From Haloplanus sp. XH21 (lineage in GTDB: Archaea; Halobacteriota; Halobacteria; Halobacteriales; Haloferacaceae), in NCBI RefSeq assembly GCF_023276355.1, contig NZ_JALLPL010000001.1, forward strand, positions 1,798,001 through 1,862,000: DNA of 64,000 nt. Direction: 5' to 3'. The position numbers and the translations under genes were made by a program. Positions 4,471 through 17,134 of this stretch are shown piece by piece (position 1 is the stretch's first letter; every line of letters begins with the position of its first letter). The notes below the pieces were generated by a model, which was given only the letters and a program-made list of their open reading frames with translations, made no database searches and was not told where the DNA came from.

Positions 4471-4560
4471 AGACTTCCTCGGCCTATGACGATCCGTTCG
4501 GATGGTGGGGGACCGCAGTTGGCCTCACTCTCCCGCGAGTTCTCGCCGCCGGAAGTAACC

Positions 4561-5325
4561 ATGGATCTAACCATGTGTGGACTTCCCGTCGGACGAGCCG
4601 AGGAACTCGCGCGCCTGTACCAGAAACACGGAACCTGGAGTCGGGTCGAGGAGGTCTGGTTCGAGGAACGCCGTGCGAACCGCAGCACGCGGGAGAGCTT
4701 CCGTGAGCTCTCCCGCGTCCTCACGTCGCGATTCAAAAACGCGCCCGCCAGCCTCCCCAACCCGCGTGACGTTCCCAGCGTGTTGGATGCCTGCGCGACG
4801 CCGCGGGACAAAGCCCAGGTTCTCTATCCCTATCTCGTCGCCGATGACGCGCTCGGTCGCTACGTCGTCCACGAGTACGCGCAGCGACTGTTGGCGGACC
4901 ATCCTGACGCGCTCGATTTCTCCACCGAGACACTCACGGCCGTCCTGAAGCAGTTCAAGTCCGCTGACGGGACCCCGTTCGACTACGCCGACTCGACCAC
5001 TGAGCGATGGGGCGAAGGATTCCGATCAGTCATGCGCGAGGTCGGTGTTCTGGAGAACCAGCGAACGGTCGTGGGCACCCCCCCATCGCTGGGCGACGCC
5101 CCGCTTCTCGTCGCAATGGGGCACTCGTACGAAGCAGGCGAGGACGCGTCGGTCGAGTCGCCAGTCGGGCTCCAGTACCTGTTCCAGCCGAGTGCTCGAT
5201 GGGCGGCGCTCTACGACAGAGTAGCGGAGACGGACGCGTGGGAGTTCGTCGAACTCCACGGAAGCCTCCAACTGCGGCCGGTGGACGAGCCGTACGCGTG
5301 GATCACCCGAGAGGGGGCTGATTGA
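4561..5325 (+). CDS. brxA: BrxA-like BREX protein (DUF1819)
   Basis: From the ATG at 4561 the product is 254 aa; an upstream ATG at 4486 would add 25 residues that do not look like the family. The central part follows the DUF1819/BrxA pattern: helices with NRSTRESFRELSRVLTSRF, then DKAQVLYPYLVADDALGRY and a long helical bundle ending in SVMREVGVLE. BrxA is a small DNA-binding helical protein of BREX phage-defence systems, usually about 200 aa, so this copy has a C-terminal extension. The TGA overlaps the ATG of the following brxC gene, placing it first in a four-gene operon. I see no strong TATA box in front. Family assignment is from memory of the pattern. Confidence 0.72.
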   Translation: MDLTMCGLPVGRAEELARLYQKHGTWSRVEEVWFEERRANRSTRESFRELSRVLTSRFKNAPASLPNPRDVPSVLDACATPRDKAQVLYPYLVADDALGRYVVHEYAQRLLADHPDALDFSTETLTAVLKQFKSADGTPFDYADSTTERWGEGFRSVMREVGVLENQRTVVGTPPSLGDAPLLVAMGHSYEAGEDASVESPVGLQYLFQPSARWAALYDRVAETDAWEFVELHGSLQLRPVDEPYAWITREGAD

Positions 5326-8300
5326 TGGTCGACGCAACGTGGTTCGACGACCTGCCCGAAGACTTCGAAGAATCAGTGCGGATCGATCGTCAAGACCGGT
5401 CTGCGGGCGAACACAAGCACAGGGAGCACGCCATCGAGTCATACCACGTTACGGCCGACTCCCAGCGCTTCCTCGAAGACTTCGTCAACCGACTCCTCGG
5501 CGACACGGCGGACATGCGCACGGGGGCGAACTACTGGCTCTATGGCTACTACGGCAGCGGGAAGAGCCACCTGCTGACCGTTCTGGATGGGTTGATGGAT
5601 ACCCAGTGGCTCCAGCGTCGCGACGACATCTGGCGTGACCTCGTTCCGGACACGTCGGCGGAACGCGACCTCGATGCGTTGCGCAGCGACTGGGAACGTG
5701 TTCATGCCGCGTATCACGTCATCCCGGTGTCGGTGAACTTGCTGAAATATCAGGGCCAGAAGCAACGCAGTTTCAGTGAAATCGTCCTTCGGCACGCCCA
5801 CCAGAACTCGACACTCACGGGCGTTGCTGACGGGGTCTCCACCGGGCTGTCGTCCCAGCTCGATGTCGCATACTTCGAGGACTGGTACCGGACGACCGAG
5901 GCATGGTCGGAACGACGGGATCGGGCGGCAGCCGTCGTCGACGGGGTGACCCCGGAGGATCCACGATACGAGTGGAAACCGGACGAGCTCTGGACCGACA
6001 TCCAGCAGTACAGCGCGCTGTCCGATGTCGTGCTTCCAGAGCTGTTCGAACAAGTGACGGGCACGCGTGACGGCTACACCGACCTCCAGCCGTCGGATAT
6101 CGACCCCGAGGCGGTCGTCAGTCGACTGGAATCGCTTCGGCAGGCACGCGAAGCGGAATTCGAGGACCCAGTCAAGCTCGTTCTCCTGCTCGACGAAGTG
6201 AGCCTCTTCATCGGAACCGACTTCGAGCGTCTCACCGAGCTGCAGACGCTCGCCGAAAACGTCGACGACATCGGTGAGGGCGACATCCAGCTCGTCGCGA
6301 CGGCGCAGGCGAAAATCGAGGACGGCCAACCGAAGTTCGCGGCCCACGGAGCTGATTTCAGTATCGTCAAAGACCGGTTCCCCCACCGGTATCAGCTCCC
6401 GAGCAAGCACGTCGGCGACATCGCCAAACGGCGGCTCTTCCAGAAGTCAGAACCGGGCGAAGACGCGGTCCGGCGCATCCTCGATGACGCCGACGTGAAG
6501 CCGACCGAATCGCTCGTCTACAACGAGATCAAGCAGAACACGAAACCACCACTCGATGCGGTCGACGACGAGGAACTCGTCGAGTTCTACCCGTTCCTCC
6601 CGTCTCACGCGCCCCTGTTCCTCGAGATCCTGTTCAACCTCCGTCGAGAGGCGAACGATCCGGCGAAGTCCATCTTCTCGGGGACTGCGCGGGCCATTCT
6701 GGCGCTCATGCACGGGCTACTGGTGGACTGGATCGACGACGGCGAGGACGACCGGATCATCTCGCTGGTCGACCTCTTCGAGTTGATCGAGCCCGAACTC
6801 CGCGAAATCCTCCCGCAGGATATGCGTGTCGTCGAGGGCGTCGAGGAGACGACCGGCATCGCGGACGAGGTAGCCGACGGCGGGAGTGAGCTACAGACGT
6901 TCGACCTCGACGTCGCGAAGGCGGTCCTCCTGCTCCAGCACGTGCACGAAATCGTCCCGCTGAACGAGGGGAACATCGCGGTCGCCGTGATGAGCGACCT
7001 GAACGGCCAGTCCTGGATCAGCACGACGAACCGCGTCGAGGAGTCACTGGATCGGCTGCAGAAGTTCATCCGGCCGACGCAGGGCGAGAGCGGGGCTCGC
7101 TACCGGTTCGCAACACAGGAGGAGCGCCTCATCTACGACGAGGCCGAGGAGAACGAAGCGGCCCCGGACTGGGACGCCGTCGTCGAAACGCTCGACGAAC
7201 ACCTCTGGGAGCGCATCACCCAGGACCTGCCGCTCCCAGAATCCGTACCGTACGGTGAGTCCGGTGACGAGTACCCGGTCTCGTATCACTTCGAACTCGA
7301 CGGGACGACGTTCGAGACCAATGTCGACTCCGAGGAGGGGCTGGATATCGACGTCGCCGTCCGGGGGGTTCGCCCGGGCACAGCGCACGAACGAGCCGAT
7401 GCAGACACACTGTACTGGGACATCGACACCGATGGGCTCCAGGACCTGCGTAACCGACTGGTCGAATGGTGGGCGCTTCGTGACGCGATCGCGACGAGCG
7501 ACATCCCTCCAGCAGTCGAGCGCGACCTCGAACGGCGGGCGACTGCCGTCCGCAGCAAGCTGACCAGCGCGATGGCGAGCGGCTCGCACACCGTCAAAGA
7601 CCGGACGGACATCGGCGGCCTCTCGAAGGCGGTTCAGGTCGCAGTGGGCGTCACGTATCCCGACGACTTCCACCCGATGATGCTCCAGATCGACGAGCGT
7701 CGACTGCGCGAGCTGCGTGAACTCGACGGCGATGCACCGCTGCCCGCATGGGCGCGGACGATCCAGGTCCCTTCGTCGAATCAGAACGGCGGGCACGGCA
7801 AGCAGACCATCCAGCGAAACGTCATGTCCCTCACCGGTCGACAGCTGAACGACCGCGACGAGGGTCTCAACATGAATACGATCCTCGCTGGCATCGTCGA
7901 ACAGAAGCCGTTCTACGACGAGGCGCGGCCGGCGCTCCGGGCGATCATCTGGGGGTTCTGTCGGGAGGGGCGACTGCTGCCCATCGACGAAGACGGAAAC
8001 ACGCTGGAAGACGGCGCCGTCCTCGATTTCGACACACCCTCGACGCCGAGGCTAACACTCCTCCCACGCACGAACTTGAGCAAGCTTCTGGAGGCGGGTG
8101 GGTTCAAGGAGACGACCGAAACCGTCGCGGACGGTCTCATCCACCTCCAGGAAGCGAACCGACGTGTTCGCTCGACGCTCACTGGACTTCGCGAGGACGT
8201 GACTCTGGCCGTCGACACGGACGTTCAAACCGACGAAGTCGCCGGGTTACTCGAGGCGTTTGCTGCCGAACTGACCGAACGGATCGGCGCGACCGACGAC

Positions 8301-9068
8301 CGCCTGTCGACCGTCAAATCACAAGGTGACGGTATCGACGGCGTCATCGGCGAGACGAACGACACACAGGAGTGGGTCGAAGAGGTGACCGACGTCTGGA
8401 ATCGTCGTCTGCCGACGCTGCAACAGCTCGACGCGGTGTTCACGATCGGAAGTCGTCAGTTCGACTGGCTCGACGAGGACGCCCGCTCTCTCGTCGACGC
8501 CCGTTCGACTGTGGTCTCGTCGTTCGACGGCGCGTGGTGGACGGCGGACGGGTGGAGTACGCTCTCCGGAGAGTTGGTCCCCGATCTCGCCCCCGACCTC
8601 GAGCGGTCGTGGAACACGTTCGTCGACGAACGTGGCCTGCGTGAACTGGTCGATCGTATCGAGGAGCATCCCTGGGTGCGCCCGGCGACCGCCCTCCCGG
8701 CAGGCGTCCACATCGCCTTCGAGGGCGAGTACATCACGCCGCTGCGTCAGCTCCAGCAGTGGTACGAAACGATCGAGAACGCCATCACGACGCTGTCGGG
8801 TGGTGCAGATGCGGACGAGATCGCCGAGGTAACGGACGGCGTGGCGCAAGTAGAGCCGCTCGACGGCGCGGTCGAGGTCGGTCCGGCTGCGTTGACTGCT
8901 CGGCTCGACGAACTGTCGTCGATCGTCGGCGACCGAGCGCCCGACGACATCGACCAGATCGGCATCGTTCCCGACGACCGGCAGAAACTGAACCGTCGCG
9001 TGGCGCGTCTCGTCGAACAGCGAGCCCTCGAAATCGAGGAGACGGCCGACGGGGTGATCATTCGATGA
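5325..9068 (+). CDS. brxC: BrxC/PglY-type BREX P-loop ATPase, first copy
   Basis: A 1247-aa protein with a Walker A motif GYYGSGKSH at residues 74-82 (Lys80) and a Walker B LVLLLDE at residues 285-291, followed by SLFIG and a sensor-like LVATAQAK near residue 326. This is the arrangement of BrxC/PglY, the large AAA-like ATPase of BREX systems. The middle and C-terminal thirds are helical and acidic without recognisable domains. A TTG precedes the ATG, but the ATG at 5325, overlapping the brxA stop by one base, is preferred. The gene also overlaps brxB by 4 bases. A second, divergent BrxC follows brxB; two BrxC copies are the hallmark of the haloarchaeal type 5 BREX layout. Confidence 0.8.
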   Translation: MVDATWFDDLPEDFEESVRIDRQDRSAGEHKHREHAIESYHVTADSQRFLEDFVNRLLGDTADMRTGANYWLYGYYGSGKSHLLTVLDGLMDTQWLQRRDDIWRDLVPDTSAERDLDALRSDWERVHAAYHVIPVSVNLLKYQGQKQRSFSEIVLRHAHQNSTLTGVADGVSTGLSSQLDVAYFEDWYRTTEAWSERRDRAAAVVDGVTPEDPRYEWKPDELWTDIQQYSALSDVVLPELFEQVTGTRDGYTDLQPSDIDPEAVVSRLESLRQAREAEFEDPVKLVLLLDEVSLFIGTDFERLTELQTLAENVDDIGEGDIQLVATAQAKIEDGQPKFAAHGADFSIVKDRFPHRYQLPSKHVGDIAKRRLFQKSEPGEDAVRRILDDADVKPTESLVYNEIKQNTKPPLDAVDDEELVEFYPFLPSHAPLFLEILFNLRREANDPAKSIFSGTARAILALMHGLLVDWIDDGEDDRIISLVDLFELIEPELREILPQDMRVVEGVEETTGIADEVADGGSELQTFDLDVAKAVLLLQHVHEIVPLNEGNIAVAVMSDLNGQSWISTTNRVEESLDRLQKFIRPTQGESGARYRFATQEERLIYDEAEENEAAPDWDAVVETLDEHLWERITQDLPLPESVPYGESGDEYPVSYHFELDGTTFETNVDSEEGLDIDVAVRGVRPGTAHERADADTLYWDIDTDGLQDLRNRLVEWWALRDAIATSDIPPAVERDLERRATAVRSKLTSAMASGSHTVKDRTDIGGLSKAVQVAVGVTYPDDFHPMMLQIDERRLRELRELDGDAPLPAWARTIQVPSSNQNGGHGKQTIQRNVMSLTGRQLNDRDEGLNMNTILAGIVEQKPFYDEARPALRAIIWGFCREGRLLPIDEDGNTLEDGAVLDFDTPSTPRLTLLPRTNLSKLLEAGGFKETTETVADGLIHLQEANRRVRSTLTGLREDVTLAVDTDVQTDEVAGLLEAFAAELTERIGATDDRLSTVKSQGDGIDGVIGETNDTQEWVEEVTDVWNRRLPTLQQLDAVFTIGSRQFDWLDEDARSLVDARSTVVSSFDGAWWTADGWSTLSGELVPDLAPDLERSWNTFVDERGLRELVDRIEEHPWVRPATALPAGVHIAFEGEYITPLRQLQQWYETIENAITTLSGGADADEIAEVTDGVAQVEPLDGAVEVGPAALTARLDELSSIVGDRAPDDIDQIGIVPDDRQKLNRRVARLVEQRALEIEETADGVIIR

Positions 9069-9685
9069 GCCAGGGAAGTCCGTCGCCGTTCCGCGACTTC
9101 AAGACGAAGCTGTGTACGTTCGCGAAGGGCCAGCACGGAATCCGCAATCCGTTCGTCATCGCTGCCGTCGCCCCGGCGATCGAACATCGGGTCACGGACC
9201 GCCTCGAGACCTGGTCGACTGGCCGAGGGAAATCCCCGGTGGTTCCAGACGACATCACCGTGCAGCCGATCTGGCTCGACGAACTCCTCCCACAAACCGA
9301 CGTGTACAAGCTCCTCGTCGATCTGGGCGAGCCCCTGGCTGAGATCGGCGGCGAGAAATCCTCGGGTGAGCGGATCGCGGAGACGATGCAGGATCGGCTC
9401 GCCGAAGAGCTCGTTCAGGGGATGATCGAACACGAGCTCGGCGACGCTCAGCTGGAGACGCAGAGTCACGTGGTGCTGCTGCTCAACCTGGGTAGTCTGT
9501 ACCCGTTCACGCGCGCGTTGGAACTGCTCGATGAACTCGACCGACGAAACGTCAAGTCCACGGTCGGCATCCCGTTCCCCGGGGATGTCGTCGGGGGGAA
9601 GCTGAGCTTCTTCGGTGGCGAATCGCCACACTACTACCCCGCCCACCAGATCGACGGCCAGATCCAGGGGGTACATCTCCAGTGA
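9065..9685 (+). CDS. brxB: BrxB-like BREX protein (DUF1788)
   Basis: The 206-aa product matches DUF1788/BrxB. It contains LLLNLGSLYPFTRALELLDEL near residues 138-158, VGIPFPGDV near residue 172, and a C-terminal end with SFFGGESPHYYPAH. These features (an NLG-P-R core and a closing PFPG / Y-A segment) recur in the family. BrxB is a core BREX protein of unknown biochemical role, probably part of a complex with BrxC and PglZ. Its ATG overlaps the brxC1 TGA, and its own TGA overlaps the GTG of the second brxC, so translation is coupled through the whole operon. Confidence 0.77.
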   Translation: MSQGSPSPFRDFKTKLCTFAKGQHGIRNPFVIAAVAPAIEHRVTDRLETWSTGRGKSPVVPDDITVQPIWLDELLPQTDVYKLLVDLGEPLAEIGGEKSSGERIAETMQDRLAEELVQGMIEHELGDAQLETQSHVVLLLNLGSLYPFTRALELLDELDRRNVKSTVGIPFPGDVVGGKLSFFGGESPHYYPAHQIDGQIQGVHLQ

Positions 9686-12600
9686 CGATCGCCGACCTCT
9701 TCCACAGCGATCCGACGCGACAGCTCGAAGAGGTACAGAAGGTCAACGCTCGCGAACGGGCCGAGACCGACGTGAGAGAGTTCTACGAGACCGACAGCGC
9801 CGAGCGGGTTCTCGGGCAACTCGGCGAGGCGATCCAGACACGTCTCGGTGAGGCTGCGCGCTTCCTCTACATCCACGCGACGTTCGGATCAGGGAAGACC
9901 CACCTCCTGAAGCTGGTTGGCTTCCTCGCTGACGACGAATCCGAGTTCGCCTCTCTGGGTGATCGACTGGCCGAGCAGTGGCCAGGGTTCGACGAGCTCC
10001 AGCGGTCCATCGGTGACTCGCACGCCGACCGCCTCAAACCGATCTTCCTCAACCTGCTCGACCGCGACGCGTCGAAGGAGCCACCGCTGCCGTTCCTCAT
10101 CTTCGAAGCGATCGGCCGCGAACTCGGATATCCGACCGGGCCGAACTGGCTGCTCGAGTGGACCTGGACGCTCGATATGGAGTATCAGGGTGTCTGGGAG
10201 GCGCTCCAGACGGTCGAACACGACGGGAAGACGTTCGACGACGTGCTCGACGAGCGGGCCACACTCCGCAGCTGGCTCTACGACGCGTTGCCGGCGATGC
10301 CGGAGACGGCCGGGACGGCGCTCGACAGCCGTTCGGGCGTGAAAGCTGCCATCGAAACCGCGGAAGACGACATCGAGCCCGACGCGTTCGACCCCGGTGA
10401 TCTCGTCTCGCGTGTTGAGACCGCAACGGAAGCCCTGAACGACGGGAGCAAGCGAACCGAGTTGCTGCTGGGTCTGGACGAGGTGGCGCTCTTCGTCGGC
10501 GACAGTCGCCACCGCTACCGTGAGTTCGAGGCGACGATGGAGGCGCTCCAGCGGGGTCCGAACCCCGTCGTCGTCACCACCGGGCAGTACTCGCTTCCGG
10601 AGACGCGCGCGAGCCTCATCGGAGAGCCTCCCGAAGACCACTGGACACACCAGCAGGTCCCGCTCGAAGGCGCAGACGCGGAGATCATCGTGCGAAAACG
10701 GTGGCTCCAGAAGTCCGATCCCGATGGCCGGGAGCGCGTCGCGTCGCTGGTGGCGTCGATGCCCGACCTCTCGCTCCGGACGTACGGGGCGGTGACGAGC
10801 GCCGACCCGGACCCGGTCGAGTCCTACCCGTTCCGCGAGTACGACCTGTCGCTCCTGCGGGCGGTGATGCAGGAACTCATCACGCAGGGACGCTCGGCCG
10901 ACCGCGACGACATCCAGGGCCGAGCACTGCTCGTCCTGGTCCGGTCGCTGTTCACCAAGTTTGGCTGGGCGTCGAAGGAAGCGGGATCGCTCGTCACGTG
11001 GGATATCCTGTTCGACCTGCTGGTCGAGGAGACGACGTACCTTCCGCTCTGGGTCCAGGAGATGGTCGACAACACGCTGGTGCCGACGTTCGACGGTGAC
11101 GACGCCGCCTGGGAAGTGCGCCTCGCGAAAGGGCTCTACCTCCTGAACCAGGCGCCGGCTGTCCCCGCGACGCCCGAGAACCTCGGTCGGTTGATGGTCG
11201 ACGACGTGACGGCGTCCGCCGACGGCGTCGTCGAGCGAACCGAGTCGGGGTTGGAGACGCTCGTCGACAAGCAGAAGATCCTCACCGAGACGAACGACCA
11301 GGGAGACGAAGTGTATACGCTCGTCTCGGAGGAACAGGAGAGCATCCTCAGCCGGGCGCAAGACAAGGCCGCCAAGGTTTCGCCACACCAGCTGTCGGCG
11401 TGGCTGGAGACGCGACTACGCGAGAACGACGACTTCTTTCGCAGCGACGGGAGCCGCCACGAGGCCGACATCGGCGACGAGCGCCTCGTCCCGCTTCGGT
11501 ACGACTACTCCGTCCTCGAACCGGTCGACCGAGCCCCGTCCCCCGAGTACGACGCGCTCCGGGTTCGCGTACTGGCCGACGATCACGACACCGTCTCCGA
11601 CCAGGTCGAGACGTGGCAGGACGTGAACGACGACCGCGACGGTGGCGAACACGTCCTGCTCACCATCGAGGTTCCGGAGACGATGCTCGAGCGGATTCGG
11701 AACATCATCGGGATGGGACAGGTGCTGGACGAGGAGACCGAGTCCCACGAGGACCTCGAGCGCGAGCACCGCGCCGACAAACGCTGCCTCGAATCGTCGG
11801 TGACCGCGATTCTGGCGGACGCGTCGGTGTATACGGTCCACGAACGCCGCGGCGCACGCGCTACCGTGTTGGGCGATGTCGTCGCGGATCAGGTCGAGGC
11901 GGTGTTCGGCTCGTCGCGGAAGACGCTCTCGCGGCCGCTCGTCGAGGTGGACGACGCGAAGGGGATGGCAAAATTCTTCCGCGGTAGCGGCGCGTGGCCG
12001 CTCTCGGACGCCGACGCCGCGATGCTCGGGGTCGATACCGGCAGTGCCGAGATCGCCGACACCGGGTGGTGTCGCGAGTTCATCGACACGTACGAGTCAC
12101 AGAAAGCGGTCGATGTCGAGACGCTCCGCCAACAAACACGGACTGCCAACGGCGACTATCGGGGAACGCCACAGGAGTCGATCGCCGCGCTTCTCATCAC
12201 ACTCGCCACCTCGAACGAGTCCGTCGCGCTCAAGCAGGACGCCGAGTACGTGTCCGACCCGGCCGCTATCGGTCGGCAAGTGCGAACCAAAGGGGGACTG
12301 ACGTCGCTGCAGGTTCGCTTCGGTGTCGAGATCATCGACCCGAAGGCGGTGAGAGAGATCGTCGCAACGGTGCTCGGCGAGGAACCGGCGGGCGACGGGC
12401 CGGACGAATGGCTGACTGCGCTCGGCGCGTGGGTCGGCGAGCACAGCGCGACGGTCAAACGCACGCTGAAAGGCGCCACCCGAGCGTTCGACGTGACGCT
12501 CGACGCCTTCGAGGCAACGATCGAACCGGCCCTCGGCGGTGGGGAGCTTTCCACGTCCGATCTGGGCAGTGGGACCGACCTCGACACGGTGCTCGCGGAG

Positions 12601-13515
12601 GCCACGACCTTCGCGGACGCTCGCGACCTCTTCGGCGTCGAGGAAGACGGGACGACGCTCTGGGAACGCTTCGACGACGAACTGGACACGATGGCGTCGC
12701 GTTACCCGAACGCGTCGATCACCGACAGCATGCGGGTAACGGCGGAGAGCAGTACCGTCCCCAGTGTCGCGACGGTCGAGTCACAGCTTCGGGACGCTGC
12801 GGGGCATCGCGTCGATGCAACGGGGACACAGTACCGGCGGATTACGGGGGAGGCTACCACGGACGCCGATCCCGAGAGCATCTGCGACGACCTGCGCGCG
12901 TGGCTGCGGTCGAACGAGGACGACGTTCGGGGCATCGTCGACGCCGCCATCGGCGAGTTCGACGGCGTCGTGCTCGACGATCTGGCGGGGATGTTCCAGG
13001 CGGTCTGGAACGGCGAAGACCTCTCGGAACGTGATGTCGTCGACTCGGCCGTCGTCCAGCAGACCGAGACGTACGCGCAGGTCCGTGACCTGTTCGAGGA
13101 CACCGGCGGTGCGAGCCTCTGGTCGCAGCTACAGGAGGCGGGCCGAGAATTGCGCGAGGCGCATCCGGACTCGCCGACGACCGAGACCGTCGAGACGGCG
13201 CTCGCCGCCTCGCGACCACCCACGGAACGGCGGGTGCGCCAGCTCATCGAGCGGGCCACGGAGCCGAAGCCGCCCGGACCGGACGGCGGTGCCTGGGCCG
13301 AGCTGCAGGCGGCCGCCGAGGAACTGCGTCAGGAGCTTCCGAACGCCGAGGTGACCGATGAGGTTACGGCCGCTGTCGATGCGGACGAGAAACCGAGTGA
13401 AGAACGCGTGAACGAGTTGCTCTCGGAATCCGAGGCGGTCCTGGAGCGGATTCGGAACGTGACGGAACGGCTCGACGGGCTAGAGGATGGCAGTATCGTG
13501 TTGATCGACGACTGA
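9682..13515 (+). CDS. brxC: BrxC/PglY-type BREX P-loop ATPase, second copy
   Basis: This 1277-aa protein starts with GTG at 9682, overlapping the brxB stop. Walker A is FGSGKTHLL (Lys72) and Walker B is LLLGLDE with the acidic pair at residues 266-267, followed by VALFVGD. The phrase DEV-LF-G is shared with the first BrxC, but the rest is clearly divergent. The last third contains repeated acidic helical units, predicted coiled coil, ending in a helix with RIRNVTERLDGLEDG. Two unlike BrxC ATPases in one operon suggest a hetero-oligomer. A regulator with its own promoter follows, so this gene probably ends the first transcript. Confidence 0.8.
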   Translation: MTIADLFHSDPTRQLEEVQKVNARERAETDVREFYETDSAERVLGQLGEAIQTRLGEAARFLYIHATFGSGKTHLLKLVGFLADDESEFASLGDRLAEQWPGFDELQRSIGDSHADRLKPIFLNLLDRDASKEPPLPFLIFEAIGRELGYPTGPNWLLEWTWTLDMEYQGVWEALQTVEHDGKTFDDVLDERATLRSWLYDALPAMPETAGTALDSRSGVKAAIETAEDDIEPDAFDPGDLVSRVETATEALNDGSKRTELLLGLDEVALFVGDSRHRYREFEATMEALQRGPNPVVVTTGQYSLPETRASLIGEPPEDHWTHQQVPLEGADAEIIVRKRWLQKSDPDGRERVASLVASMPDLSLRTYGAVTSADPDPVESYPFREYDLSLLRAVMQELITQGRSADRDDIQGRALLVLVRSLFTKFGWASKEAGSLVTWDILFDLLVEETTYLPLWVQEMVDNTLVPTFDGDDAAWEVRLAKGLYLLNQAPAVPATPENLGRLMVDDVTASADGVVERTESGLETLVDKQKILTETNDQGDEVYTLVSEEQESILSRAQDKAAKVSPHQLSAWLETRLRENDDFFRSDGSRHEADIGDERLVPLRYDYSVLEPVDRAPSPEYDALRVRVLADDHDTVSDQVETWQDVNDDRDGGEHVLLTIEVPETMLERIRNIIGMGQVLDEETESHEDLEREHRADKRCLESSVTAILADASVYTVHERRGARATVLGDVVADQVEAVFGSSRKTLSRPLVEVDDAKGMAKFFRGSGAWPLSDADAAMLGVDTGSAEIADTGWCREFIDTYESQKAVDVETLRQQTRTANGDYRGTPQESIAALLITLATSNESVALKQDAEYVSDPAAIGRQVRTKGGLTSLQVRFGVEIIDPKAVREIVATVLGEEPAGDGPDEWLTALGAWVGEHSATVKRTLKGATRAFDVTLDAFEATIEPALGGGELSTSDLGSGTDLDTVLAEATTFADARDLFGVEEDGTTLWERFDDELDTMASRYPNASITDSMRVTAESSTVPSVATVESQLRDAAGHRVDATGTQYRRITGEATTDADPESICDDLRAWLRSNEDDVRGIVDAAIGEFDGVVLDDLAGMFQAVWNGEDLSERDVVDSAVVQQTETYAQVRDLFEDTGGASLWSQLQEAGRELREAHPDSPTTETVETALAASRPPTERRVRQLIERATEPKPPGPDGGAWAELQAAAEELRQELPNAEVTDEVTAAVDADEKPSEERVNELLSESEAVLERIRNVTERLDGLEDGSIVLIDD

Positions 13516-13552
13516 GCAGCTCCACGAACATCCGTCGTTCAGAACCCGGCCC

Positions 13553-13612
13553 CACGATGTAACATAACAGGAAACTTATTTATAAATAAATTGCGTATCA
13601 CGTTACATCGTG
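13553..13612. promoter_or_regulatory. Promoter and operator of the BREX-linked regulator
   Basis: A perfect 11-bp inverted repeat, CACGATGTAAC at 13553-13563 and GTTACATCGTG at 13602-13612, brackets an AT-rich TATA box (TTTATAAATAAATT, about 13579-13592). The right arm includes the GTG start codon at 13610. The TATA-to-start distance of about 25 bases means the transcript is leaderless. A dimer on both arms could loop out or cover the TATA box and start site, so autoregulation is likely. Confidence 0.72.
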
Positions 13613-14479
13613 CTCCGGCGCATCGAACTCGAGGTCCTCGCCACGGTCGACCGCGGCGACACGATCTCCGAGCTCGCGACGAAGCTCGACCACAGCGAGA
13701 GCTACCTCTCCCGCGCCGTCGGAGACCTCGGCGAGAAGGGTCTCGTCTACACGGAGCGCGACGGCCGCCGCAAGCGGGTCGTTCCGTCTGCTAGCCGGGC
13801 CGTCGAACTCTACCAGGACCTCGCCCGTCAGCACTCTCACATCGACTTCTCGGAGCTGTTGGCCGGCAAGACCCTCGAAGTGCTGTACTATCTCGACCAG
13901 CCGCGGACCGTTTCCGAGATCGCTGACCGGAGCGACAACTACCGCAACACGGTCAACCGCGTCCTCAAGGGACTTCGCGACCGCGGTCTCGTCGGCACGG
14001 ACGACGGTCGCTATGCCTTCAACGCCGACTTCGGCCGCCTCCACGAGTTCGCTCGTGAACTCGCCCACCGTCTTCATCGCCAACGGCTCGAATCCGTCGC
14101 ACCGAACGGGACGATTCTCTGGGAAGACCACGATGAATGCCTCGCCCAGACCGAGACGGAGGTCGACGCGGAGGGGTTCCACGAAACCGGCCTCGCTCGG
14201 TTCGCGGCATTCGACCTCCAGTTTCTGCTGACCCGCCGCCACTACTACCTCTACTCCGAGGACGTAGCGGAAATCTCGCCGGCGGAACTCTGCTGTCACA
14301 CGCTGCTGATCGACGACGACTCCCGTCACCGCTCGTACTGTCTCCTCCTGCTCAGCCACGTCGACATCGACGAGGGGGACCTCCGAGAACGAGCGGCGAA
14401 ATACGGGCTGGAAGACGAAATCGACGCCTTGCTCCGCTACCTCGAGACCCACGGCGAGGTCGCCGACCAGGTGCTGTAA
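13610..14479 (+). CDS. Two-HTH transcriptional regulator of the BREX locus
   Basis: The 289-aa product, starting at GTG, has two winged-helix units. The first is at about residues 3-60 (ISELATKLDHSESYLSRAVGDL, then a basic wing DGRRKRVV) and the second at about residues 85-140 (TVSEIADRSDNYRNTVNRVL). The C-terminal 120 residues contain RRHYYLYSEDVAEISPAELC, HTLLID and a final AAKYGLEDEIDALLRYLE helix. That C-terminal part reminds me of AbiEi-like antitoxin/regulator proteins, but no toxin gene is adjacent. The gene has its own promoter with a perfect palindrome and is followed 2 bases later by pglZ, so it probably controls pglZ and itself. Confidence 0.75.
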   Translation: MLRRIELEVLATVDRGDTISELATKLDHSESYLSRAVGDLGEKGLVYTERDGRRKRVVPSASRAVELYQDLARQHSHIDFSELLAGKTLEVLYYLDQPRTVSEIADRSDNYRNTVNRVLKGLRDRGLVGTDDGRYAFNADFGRLHEFARELAHRLHRQRLESVAPNGTILWEDHDECLAQTETEVDAEGFHETGLARFAAFDLQFLLTRRHYYLYSEDVAEISPAELCCHTLLIDDDSRHRSYCLLLLSHVDIDEGDLRERAAKYGLEDEIDALLRYLETHGEVADQVL

Positions 14480-14481
14480 CC

Positions 14482-16644
14482 ATGCCCGCAACCAAAACTC
14501 TCCCCGAGTGCGTCGCAGACGCCATCCAGAACGCCATCGACGACGCGGCCGACGACGACCCAGTGATCCTCTGGTGGGACGACGGCGGCTACCTCCGCGA
14601 GATTGTCGAGCGCGTGAGCCAGGCGCGGGGGTGTGCGTTCCACGCCGCCGAGGGGACGCCGCTGGAGCTCCGCGCCGACGCGCCCCGTGACCGAACCGTC
14701 TGGTACGTCCCCCAGGCGAAGCGCGACGACGTGGACTGGTTCAGAGACATCGAGAGCACCGGCGGCGTCGTCGAAGCCCACATCGGCAAACTCGCAGCGC
14801 GCTGTTTCGAGAACGACCGCCTGCAGTCGGCCTCGGTCCGGACGGCCTACGAGAAAGCGGATGCACACGACCGCGAACAGGTCGCAAGGACGCTCTTCCG
14901 GGCACTCAACGGCGAGGGTGGTCTGCCGACGCTCCAGGAGCTCCAGACGAAGATCGTCCTCGACGGGCACGACGACCCGGTGCAGTTCGTCCTCGAACAC
15001 GGCACCGAGAGCCTCCCCGACGGCGATGACCTGCTGCAGCTCCGCGACCTGCTGGTCGAGGGCGGCGTCACGGCCGTCGAGGGCGTCACCGACGAGCGCG
15101 TGCTCGTGACGCGCACGCGCCGCTGGGCGGTCGCCGAATGGCTCGTCGAGGACGGACTGGATGAGGCGCTGCTCGACGCCGAGTATCGGCCCGAATCCGG
15201 TTCCAGTCTGGCCATCTCTCGACCCGAACTCCAGTCGCTACTGAGCACGGTCGGCCCCGAACGGGCCGAAGAGCTGGCGCACGTCTATCTCGATCCGGAC
15301 GCCCGGTTCTGGCACGACGTGTTGCGCACCCACGACGACCCGTGGGCCCTCGCCGACTGTCCCGTCGACGCCTCGCTCGAACACGAACTCTGGGACGCGT
15401 GGACGCAGGCGTTCCACGCGGGCGAGTACGAGACGTGCGCGTCGCGGGCGTCCACGCGCCACCAGCGCCTCGACACGACCTACGGCGACGTGCCGTGGAC
15501 GCGCGTCTGGGCGCAGGCCGTCGAGGTCGCCACCCTCGCGCACGAACTCGAGACGTGGGCGGAGCGCCGCGACACGACCGATGTCGTCGACCTCTACGGC
15601 GACGTCGACGACGGCACGTGGCAGATCGATAATGCCGTGTACAACCTCATCGTCTCGGGCGAACCCGAGGGCGACCTGCCCGCGGAGCATCCCGCGACGG
15701 CGACGCTCGACGAGCTTCGCACGTCGCTGACGGAGTCGCGGTATCTCGACTATCTCAGCGACCTCGCAGACCTCGTCGTCGACCAGATCGAAGCCGGCTC
15801 GCCCTTCGTCGGCGAGAACTACGCCCACCAGTTCTTCGACCAGGAGCAAGACCACCTCCAGAGCGGCCAGAGCGTCGCGCTGTTCATCGTCGACGCCTTG
15901 CGCTTCGATCTGGCGCACGAGCTAGCCGAATCCGTCCGTCGTGACCTCCCGAGCCTCGAAGTCGACGAGGCCGCCTGGGTCGGGACGCTCCCCTCGGACA
16001 CCGCGTTCGGGAAGGCGGCGCTCACGCCCGGTAGCAAGTTCAGTTTCAACGTCGAACTCGACGATGGAGAACTCGTTCCGGAACGCAACGGCCACGCGAT
16101 CACCAACCACCAGCGCAAGAAGTTGCTGAAGGACGAAGGCTGGAGTTACATCACGCAGAGCGAGGACGACGCGTCGGGCTGGTCGAGCACCCGCGTCGCG
16201 TACTACTGGAACGACCTCGACAAGGCCGGAGAGGGGGAACTGACCGACTTCGAGGCGCTGTTCAGCGACCGCCTCGAGACGATTTCGGCCATCATCTGCG
16301 AGCGGATCGATCAGGGCGAGTGGGACCGCGCGTACATCCTCGCCGATCACGGCTTCGTCTCCCTGCCACAGAGCGTCGACATCGACGACATCCACCCGCC
16401 GGACGCGGCCGAGAAAGTAACCCGCCGGTGGGTCGCCGGCGAGGATCTCGACGAGAACGCACCTGGCGTCCTCCTCGACGAGAACGCCCATCTCGGCTAC
16501 CTCGACGACGAGACGAAGATCAGTGTCCTTGCGGATCCGATCCAGCGCTTCCGCAACCAGGGGCTCCCGGACGCCCGCTTCTACCACGGTGGGGTCCTCC
16601 CACAGGAGTTCGTGTTGAACTTCGTTACGATCACGCAGGAGTAG
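14482..16644 (+). CDS. pglZ: PglZ-domain BREX protein (alkaline phosphatase superfamily)
   Basis: The 720-aa protein has a helical N-terminal two-thirds and a C-terminal PglZ domain. Two metal-site signatures are visible: FIVDALRFD at residues 468-476 and LADHGF around residue 622 (D622, H623), as in alkaline-phosphatase-like PglZ. A segment GTLPSDTAFGKAAL near residue 500 fits the substrate or nucleophile region. PglZ is the only protein common to all BREX types; its in vivo substrate is unresolved. The ATG lies 2 bases after the regulator stop, so both are one transcript. No pglX methyltransferase lies before or after it, which is unlike described type 1, 2, 3, 5 and 6 systems. Confidence 0.85.
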   Translation: MPATKTLPECVADAIQNAIDDAADDDPVILWWDDGGYLREIVERVSQARGCAFHAAEGTPLELRADAPRDRTVWYVPQAKRDDVDWFRDIESTGGVVEAHIGKLAARCFENDRLQSASVRTAYEKADAHDREQVARTLFRALNGEGGLPTLQELQTKIVLDGHDDPVQFVLEHGTESLPDGDDLLQLRDLLVEGGVTAVEGVTDERVLVTRTRRWAVAEWLVEDGLDEALLDAEYRPESGSSLAISRPELQSLLSTVGPERAEELAHVYLDPDARFWHDVLRTHDDPWALADCPVDASLEHELWDAWTQAFHAGEYETCASRASTRHQRLDTTYGDVPWTRVWAQAVEVATLAHELETWAERRDTTDVVDLYGDVDDGTWQIDNAVYNLIVSGEPEGDLPAEHPATATLDELRTSLTESRYLDYLSDLADLVVDQIEAGSPFVGENYAHQFFDQEQDHLQSGQSVALFIVDALRFDLAHELAESVRRDLPSLEVDEAAWVGTLPSDTAFGKAALTPGSKFSFNVELDDGELVPERNGHAITNHQRKKLLKDEGWSYITQSEDDASGWSSTRVAYYWNDLDKAGEGELTDFEALFSDRLETISAIICERIDQGEWDRAYILADHGFVSLPQSVDIDDIHPPDAAEKVTRRWVAGEDLDENAPGVLLDENAHLGYLDDETKISVLADPIQRFRNQGLPDARFYHGGVLPQEFVLNFVTITQE

Positions 16645-16714
16645 CGAAGAGAGGCGAATACACGGCTGGTCGTCCTTCCTCAGAGTAATGGCGCTCGGGC
16701 GATATCGGGGGACC

Positions 16715-17134
16715 ATGTCCCGCAATGATGGCCACCGTGCCGGGGAACTGTCGGAGTTCGCCGTCGCCGCCGACCTCGTTGACAAAGGGTGTCGGGTCTC
16801 TCACACTCACGGAGAGTACAAGTACGACCTCGTCGCGGATTGGGACGGCTGTCTCCTCAGAGTGCAGGTGAAGAAGGCGAACCAAGACACCGAGAAACCG
16901 TGGAAGTACCGGATATTCACGGATCGCTACGAGGCCGGTGATGTCGATCTGTTCGCCGGTCATCTCGTCGACGAAGACGAAGTTTTCTACGCGACGTTCG
17001 AAGACGGCGGATCGAACGAGTTTCGGATCAATTCCAAAACCAGCGCTGAAATCGAGGAGTATAACTCTCACGCGAAACTTGTCGAGGACTATACGTTCGG
17101 TCGAGCGATTTCTCGGTTGTGCGATGACCAATAG
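16715..17134 (+). CDS. PD-(D/E)XK-type nuclease-like protein
   Basis: The 139-aa product (start 16715; an ATG at 16688 would add 9 residues) resembles the small PD-(D/E)XK proteins first seen with group I introns. Candidate catalytic residues are E11/E14 in the first helix (GELSEFAVAADL), D38 in KYDLV, and Q51-x-K53 in the strand RVQVKKA, the known Q-x-K variant of the motif. A C-terminal helix ends the fold. It sits 70 bases after pglZ on the same strand and is the last gene of the defence island. It may be a BREX-associated effector or an independent defence nuclease. No intron or homing site is visible around it. Confidence 0.72.
   Translation: MSRNDGHRAGELSEFAVAADLVDKGCRVSHTHGEYKYDLVADWDGCLLRVQVKKANQDTEKPWKYRIFTDRYEAGDVDLFAGHLVDEDEVFYATFEDGGSNEFRINSKTSAEIEEYNSHAKLVEDYTFGRAISRLCDDQ

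Follow-up and report, generated by a model that had tools for sequence, protein, structure and literature searches.

A conserved dyad of 50 bp (13558–13607) lies over the promoter and start region of a regulator gene that stands directly upstream of the BREX-5 phosphatase gene pglZ in the 64-kb stretch of DNA analysed here (the window). On sequence comparison we consider it likely that this dyad is the autoregulatory operator of a toxin–antitoxin (TA)-type regulator with two winged helices, that operator and regulator together replaced pglX as one module, and that pglZ is now probably expressed from the borrowed promoter. The locus would then be a case, visible at the level of DNA, of a defence gene gaining regulation by capturing an operator-plus-antitoxin module at short homology and not by evolving a regulator, and would define a family of autoregulated cassettes that is widespread among haloarchaea. 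Should the unit in the window work, the balance of PglX and PglZ could be tested in an archaeon in which the two genes are uncoupled.

The preliminary description of this DNA had reported a perfect 11-bp inverted pair, CACGATGTAAC (13553–13563) and its exact reverse complement GTTACATCGTG (13602–13612), which brackets a TATA box and overlaps with its right arm the GTG start codon of the regulator (13610–13612); positions, bracketing and overlap are all as it gave them. The arms are separated by 38 bp (49 bp start-to-start) with the TATA-like ATTTATAAAT in mid-gap, and a repeat search placed them in a 60-nt quasi-palindrome that is 80 % complementary. The 11-mer pair is by itself unremarkable, since the window has about eight separate places at which an 11-bp sequence is followed, after a gap of ≤60 bp, by its exact reverse complement. 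The 50-bp dyad, to which no strand is assigned, is built of two arm pairs, one nested within the other, with the TATA box in their middle, and it ends 2 bp short of the GTG. Its outer arms are TGTAACA (13558–13564) and CGTTACA (13601–13607); its inner arms, GGAAACTT (13570–13577) and AAATTGCG (13588–13595), adjoin the TATA-box-like sequence (13578–13587, + strand) at the dyad centre. A TATA box ~27 bp before the start codon, a position kept in relatives, fits a leaderless haloarchaeal promoter. This distance, read with general knowledge of such promoters, suggests that the regulator transcript starts at the GTG.

Scored over 25 pairs, the symmetry of the dyad (19/25) is the highest of all centres in the window, where five other centres reach 18, and 20,000 Markov resamplings of the 97-bp intergenic sequence never attained this value. 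The pattern TGTAAC-N(30–46)-GTTACA occurs once in the window (0.01 expected), and TGTAAC-N(36–40)-GTTACA once in the whole genome. The outer 5 bp of the reported arms, CACGA (13553–13557, no strand) pairing with TCGTG (13608–13612), behave differently from the conserved dyad. Among 86 clade A relatives (defined below) only one, the window locus, has all five of these pairs matching, and a functional role for this extension was rejected on that ground. The CACGA/TCGTG pairing is probably chance or a by-product of a junction; five extra pairs outside the conserved dyad would arise by chance at one given locus about 1 time in 1000. The 11-bp arms do not stand as a conserved unit; only the inner 6–7 bp of each are conserved in relatives. 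Conservation of the arms wherever the gene is conserved, on which the preliminary description had made its reading depend, holds for the TGTAAC cores and fails for the full arms.

The abundance of short-gap inverted pairs in the window and the restriction of the outer 5 bp to one locus are what a chance inverted repeat in an AT-rich promoter would produce, and for the outer 5 bp that explanation stands. For the dyad core it is refuted by the resampling result and by comparison with relatives, and as an account of the whole it is extremely unlikely. The relatives fall into clade A (>80 % identical in protein; 86 distinct upstream regions), clade B (~50 % identical; 27 upstream regions) and clade C (~35 %), and inverted repeats with the 50-bp dyad architecture lie over the promoter in all three, with architecture and spacing the same in clades A and B. 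The clade A consensus, TGTAACA-CTACT-CGAAACTT-CTTTATATAC-AAGTTTCG-TACTA-TGTTACA, ends 2 bp before the start codon. Clade B carries TGTTGCA...TGCAACA or GTTGCG...CGCAAC with inner CGAA...TTCG, and clade C is less regular (e.g. GTAAAC...GTTTAC). The position and spacing of the start codon (GTG or ATG) are likewise kept.

When symmetry was scored at every possible axis, a single sharp peak was found at −27 in clades A (68 % of pairs) and B (48 %), and at −29 in clade C (45 %); across the 113 distinct upstream regions of clades A and B, axes neighbouring −27 fall to background. Between clades A and B both sides have changed with complementarity kept at inner pairs k10–11 and outer pairs k20–21, and slid axes yield fewer such compensatory pairs than the true axis; the counts refer to sequences and not to independent events, and the A/B split accounts for most of them. 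A fixed axis with changing arm sequence is as expected of a protein-bound dyad that tracks its own regulator, and would amount to an operator code for the family: four half-sites and a fixed dyad, with arm sequence varying with protein clade. That the dyad is instead the site of another regulator, or a structural element of DNA or RNA, is improbable to our minds. The protein and the DNA are linked by association and covariation only, and the right arm overlaps the start codon in the window, both of which such a reading could accommodate; however, arm sequences vary from one regulator clade to the next at constant position and spacing, and the TATA spacing suggests transcripts that begin at the GTG, in which case the dyad would be untranscribed.

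Few clade A operators have diverged as far as the window copy. Of its 50 positions, 12 are off the clade A consensus, against a median of 2; the count is higher still in L026 and L069, two relatives that seem to be displaced by an indel. Three of the changes fall in the inner arms (GGAAACTT/AAATTGCG vs the consensus CGAAACTT/AAGTTTCG) and the pair −46/−9 is broken; the cores TGTAAC and GTTACA are intact. Viral contigs gave 93 matches to TGTAACA-N5-CGAAACTT, not one of which came with the regulator or a complete operator. A wide-spaced outer pair (L252), which lacks inner arms, was set aside as chance.

The regulator (13610–14479, + strand, GTG start) is a protein of 289 aa. Pfam assigns it two winged-HTH units (about residues 4–59 and 88–137) and a truncated HVO_2833_C domain. 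An AlphaFold model (pLDDT 92.5) contains two complete winged helices, a long helix (143–163) and an alpha/beta C-domain, and thus bears out the two winged-HTH units that had been described. In a structure search, residues 1–62 superpose on winged helices of the MarR family at about 1 Å. The structure list is filled by MarR/ArsR winged helices over residues 1–129 only and contains no AbiEi, an absence that carries no weight given this coverage; the AbiEi family is also absent among the listed Pfam matches. PADLOC matches to CARF, Csa3 and CasR cover the winged helices only and were discarded as generic HTH similarity. The family is widespread, with a match in 236 of 391 genomes at E 1e-20 or better (paralogues included), and nothing on HVO_2833 or DUF6036 was found in the open literature searched. 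Native clade A relatives mostly have 304–308 residues; the window protein lacks the tail LPEWDEFQELAADY, which clades A and B retain and which can still be recognised in clade C. The omega of the regulator is 0.16 vs 0.13 in relatives (5–95 % range 0.08–0.19) and, lying within that range, gives no sign of decay; the purifying selection that it records may predate the capture. A further regulator, at locus L155 (G000:C2:142674–143585), is 94 % identical to that of L001 and has a near-consensus operator, with no nucleotidyltransferase gene after it.

Of the 90 clade A loci with sufficient sequence, 57 have a DUF6036 nucleotidyltransferase gene after the regulator, and in the loci read the two genes overlap at start and stop; no such pair is present in the window itself. 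Other clade A neighbours are a convergent PIN/MazE pair, a winged-HTH polymerase-beta-type nucleotidyltransferase or an HTH gene. The nucleotidyltransferase model (pLDDT 92.4) has MenT1 as its best solved match (Z 14.0, 177 aligned residues, 3.5 Å, 22 % identity), with MenT3 and MenT4 below it, and its GG...DxD motif is invariant. Model and motif thus place a nucleotidyltransferase of MenT/AbiEii fold in the ancestral cassette. Given this neighbour and the MenT1 match, the relatives look like AbiE/MenAT-type TA cassettes with an unusual double-winged-HTH partner. BREX genes were found in none of 109 relative loci within flanks of 1.5–3 kb. The genes after the regulator vary at L018 (3962–4696), L022 and L065, which suggests that the clade A cassette site is modular.

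A BREX-5 pglZ gene was detected in 61 of the 391 Halobacteria genomes sampled. Upstream of 64 pglZ genes, pglX sequence was present in 42 cases (two of them remnants only), a brxC-like gene without pglX in 11, neither in 10, and the regulator in one; it was found at none of the 63 other pglZ loci. In a junction search, a DNA query covering 13545–14720 was compared with 170 family genomes. Regulator cassettes align from query base 12–16, mostly from base 14, which is 13558, where the left outer arm begins, and their matches stop mostly at query base 916–923, mostly reaching up to 14467. Matches to BREX loci begin at query base 915 (14459). The right junction is the 9-bp overlap GTCGCCGAC (14459–14467, no strand), at which regulator-type sequence passes into pglX/pglZ-type sequence, and among the matches listed from the 170 genomes only the window itself spans this join. 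In the protein, HGEV continues with ADQVL and the stop vs DDDRLPEW in native relatives (native HGEVDDDRLPEW), and pglX genes end in ...VDDQVL and a stop or similar, followed by cc-ATG. These comparisons indicate that a ~910-bp segment, comprising the operator and regulator codons 1 to ~283, has replaced pglX, and that the regulator gene is by sequence a fusion whose 3′ end is formed by the final codons of pglX, 2 bp short of pglZ. The preliminary description had noticed neither the lack of pglX in this slot nor the fused nature of the regulator. A join at the short homology GTCGCCGAC would have put the module into the BREX-5 locus.

The same brxC2–pglZ slot has lost pglX in two other genomes (G240:C7:731222–731488 and G108:C67:62367–62726), where short remnants persist and no regulator was gained; G108 keeps pglX residues 1–57 and 1331–1400, and both genomes have pglX homologues elsewhere. 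Thus, pglX seems to have moved or been lost repeatedly.

The remainder of the locus is recognisably BREX type 5. PADLOC identifies brxA, a first brxC and brxB (4486–9685, + strand; BrxB also by Pfam), and a second brxC (brxC2; 9682–13515, + strand) as the upstream neighbour. The 3′ flank of brxC2 (13516–13552) resembles, by eye, the post-brxC2 flank of the BREX-5 locus L150. The pglZ gene (14482–16644, + strand; 720 aa; PADLOC PglZ) begins 2 bp after the regulator stop and its product scores 1090.8 bits against NCBIfam NF033444 (BREX_PglZ_5), for which the cut-off is 250. The reading frames of the regulator, pglZ, brxA, brxB and both brxC genes are intact. Two type 5 components are missing from the locus. 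No pglX lies between brxC2 and pglZ; the best homologue in the genome (G000:C1:1519658–1523872; 50 % identity over query residues 4–1400) is ~290 kb away. No brxHII is present either, and a query with the 968-aa gene beside pglZ in L141, which we take to be BrxHII, gave only a 36 % match at a remote site (C1:245120). With pglX and brxHII missing from the locus, the BREX system may not work. A PDDEXK_5 endonuclease-like gene (16688–17134) lies just after pglZ, as it does beside pglZ in L112, L115, L120 and L135, and may serve BREX-5 as an accessory gene. Elsewhere in the genus, one genome (G414:C1:1111624–1113900) has its pglZ match split in two (residues 1–136 and 122–720), owing perhaps to a break in the gene or to an insertion.

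The regulator had been read in the preliminary description as a regulator of BREX, which would make it a dedicated factor comparable to BrxR. BrxR is a WYL-domain dimer that binds ~11-bp repeats 5 bp apart near its own promoter, and its control of BREX provides a precedent (PMC9122589, PMC9122601). The regulator in the window likewise adjoins a BREX gene, pglZ, has winged-HTH units and has a palindrome over its own promoter. It differs from BrxR in that no WYL model is among its Pfam matches, the C-domain being HVO_2833_C, and in that its dyad is a nested one of 50 bp around the TATA box. It would also be a captured gene, not a resident one. By descent it does not belong to BREX: its relatives adjoin nucleotidyltransferase or other TA-type genes, stand beside no BREX gene in the loci checked, and are missing from the other pglZ loci examined. 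No second copy of the operator occurs near brxA or elsewhere in the window, and there is thus no sign of control over the brxACBC genes. A BrxR-like factor is therefore very improbable here, and no dedicated archaeal BREX-5 regulator was found in the open literature searched.

A serious rival is that the regulator fragment is a relic, a passenger of the recombination that removed pglX, within a decaying BREX locus whose operator has no present role for pglZ. Its standing comes from the lack of pglX and brxHII in cis, from the diverged operator and lost C-terminal tail, from an arrangement seen in one genome only, and from the two genomes in which the slot lost pglX without gaining a regulator. 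Against this, all the frames named above are intact, the outer operator cores are still exact matches, the omega is that of a constrained gene and a pglX homologue is present in trans. We regard such a relic as possible, if somewhat doubtful.

If the captured module is functional, as we favour, the regulator is predicted to bind as a dimer with four winged-HTH units, two on the outer TGTAAC half-sites and two on the inner half-sites. When the protein is plentiful, the bound dimer would sit over both TATA box and start region and so block TBP/TFB and RNA polymerase. Autoregulation had been predicted from the sequence, and a site over the TATA box and start codon fits it. Co-transcription of pglZ with the regulator, also proposed, is likely from the 2-bp gap, and pglZ would probably follow the borrowed, self-limiting promoter, with whatever effect on defence this may bring. 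The accompanying claim that this transcription is separate from brxACBC is not sustained, as read-through from brxC2 (stop at 13515) is possible. Given the diverged operator, the weakened inner arms and the lost tail, regulation in the window may be altered or lost. A more elaborate proposal is that the TA regulator and operator were recruited as a self-limiting switch that doses pglZ, with pglX acting in trans, and that a paralogue of 84 % identity, encoded on another contig behind a near-consensus operator, could cross-talk with it, linking BREX to a TA network. This is tentative and on balance unlikely.

The individual parts, autoregulating antitoxins, inverted-repeat operators and regulated BREX, are known; no description of the regulator family or of pglX replacement by an operator–regulator module was found in the open literature searched. 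The closest parallel is AbiE, in which an antitoxin-type winged-HTH gene precedes a nucleotidyltransferase gene, as in the relatives, and the promoter is autoregulated (PMC3985639, PMC7319586). The abiE promoter has outer 11-bp arms, TGTTGCTTTTA-N27-TAAAAGCAACA, that lengthen to 23 bp on either side of N3 and so span 49 bp (PMC3985639), vs 50 bp here, and the clade B arms TGTTGCA/TGCAACA share its TGTTGC motif; this resemblance may be convergent. AbiEi is described as having a single N-terminal winged HTH and a COG5340-type C-domain, whereas the regulator has two winged-HTH units and HVO_2833_C (PMC3985639, PMC7319586). Moreover, the window has pglZ in place of the nucleotidyltransferase, and a TA role is putative. 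The likeness to MenAT lies in the modelled match of the relatives' nucleotidyltransferase to MenT1, MenT3 and MenT4 and in the conserved GG...DxD motif. In contrast to MenT, that protein belongs to DUF6036 in Pfam, not DUF1814, and has a C-terminal winged helix, and its gene is absent from the window.

A second inverted repeat and a small divergent gene accompany many of the native cassettes. The small protein has no Pfam match, and the repeat is missing in the window. The region concerned is that ~88–130 bp upstream of the clade A regulator start (L001–L110). The gene (MSYEPPTPPANLPTEIVNTLN..., 87–107 aa) lies upstream of the regulator, and the repeat, TTAACCAA...TTGGTTAA, is placed between the two in 80 of 91 loci, mostly at 33 bp start-to-start.
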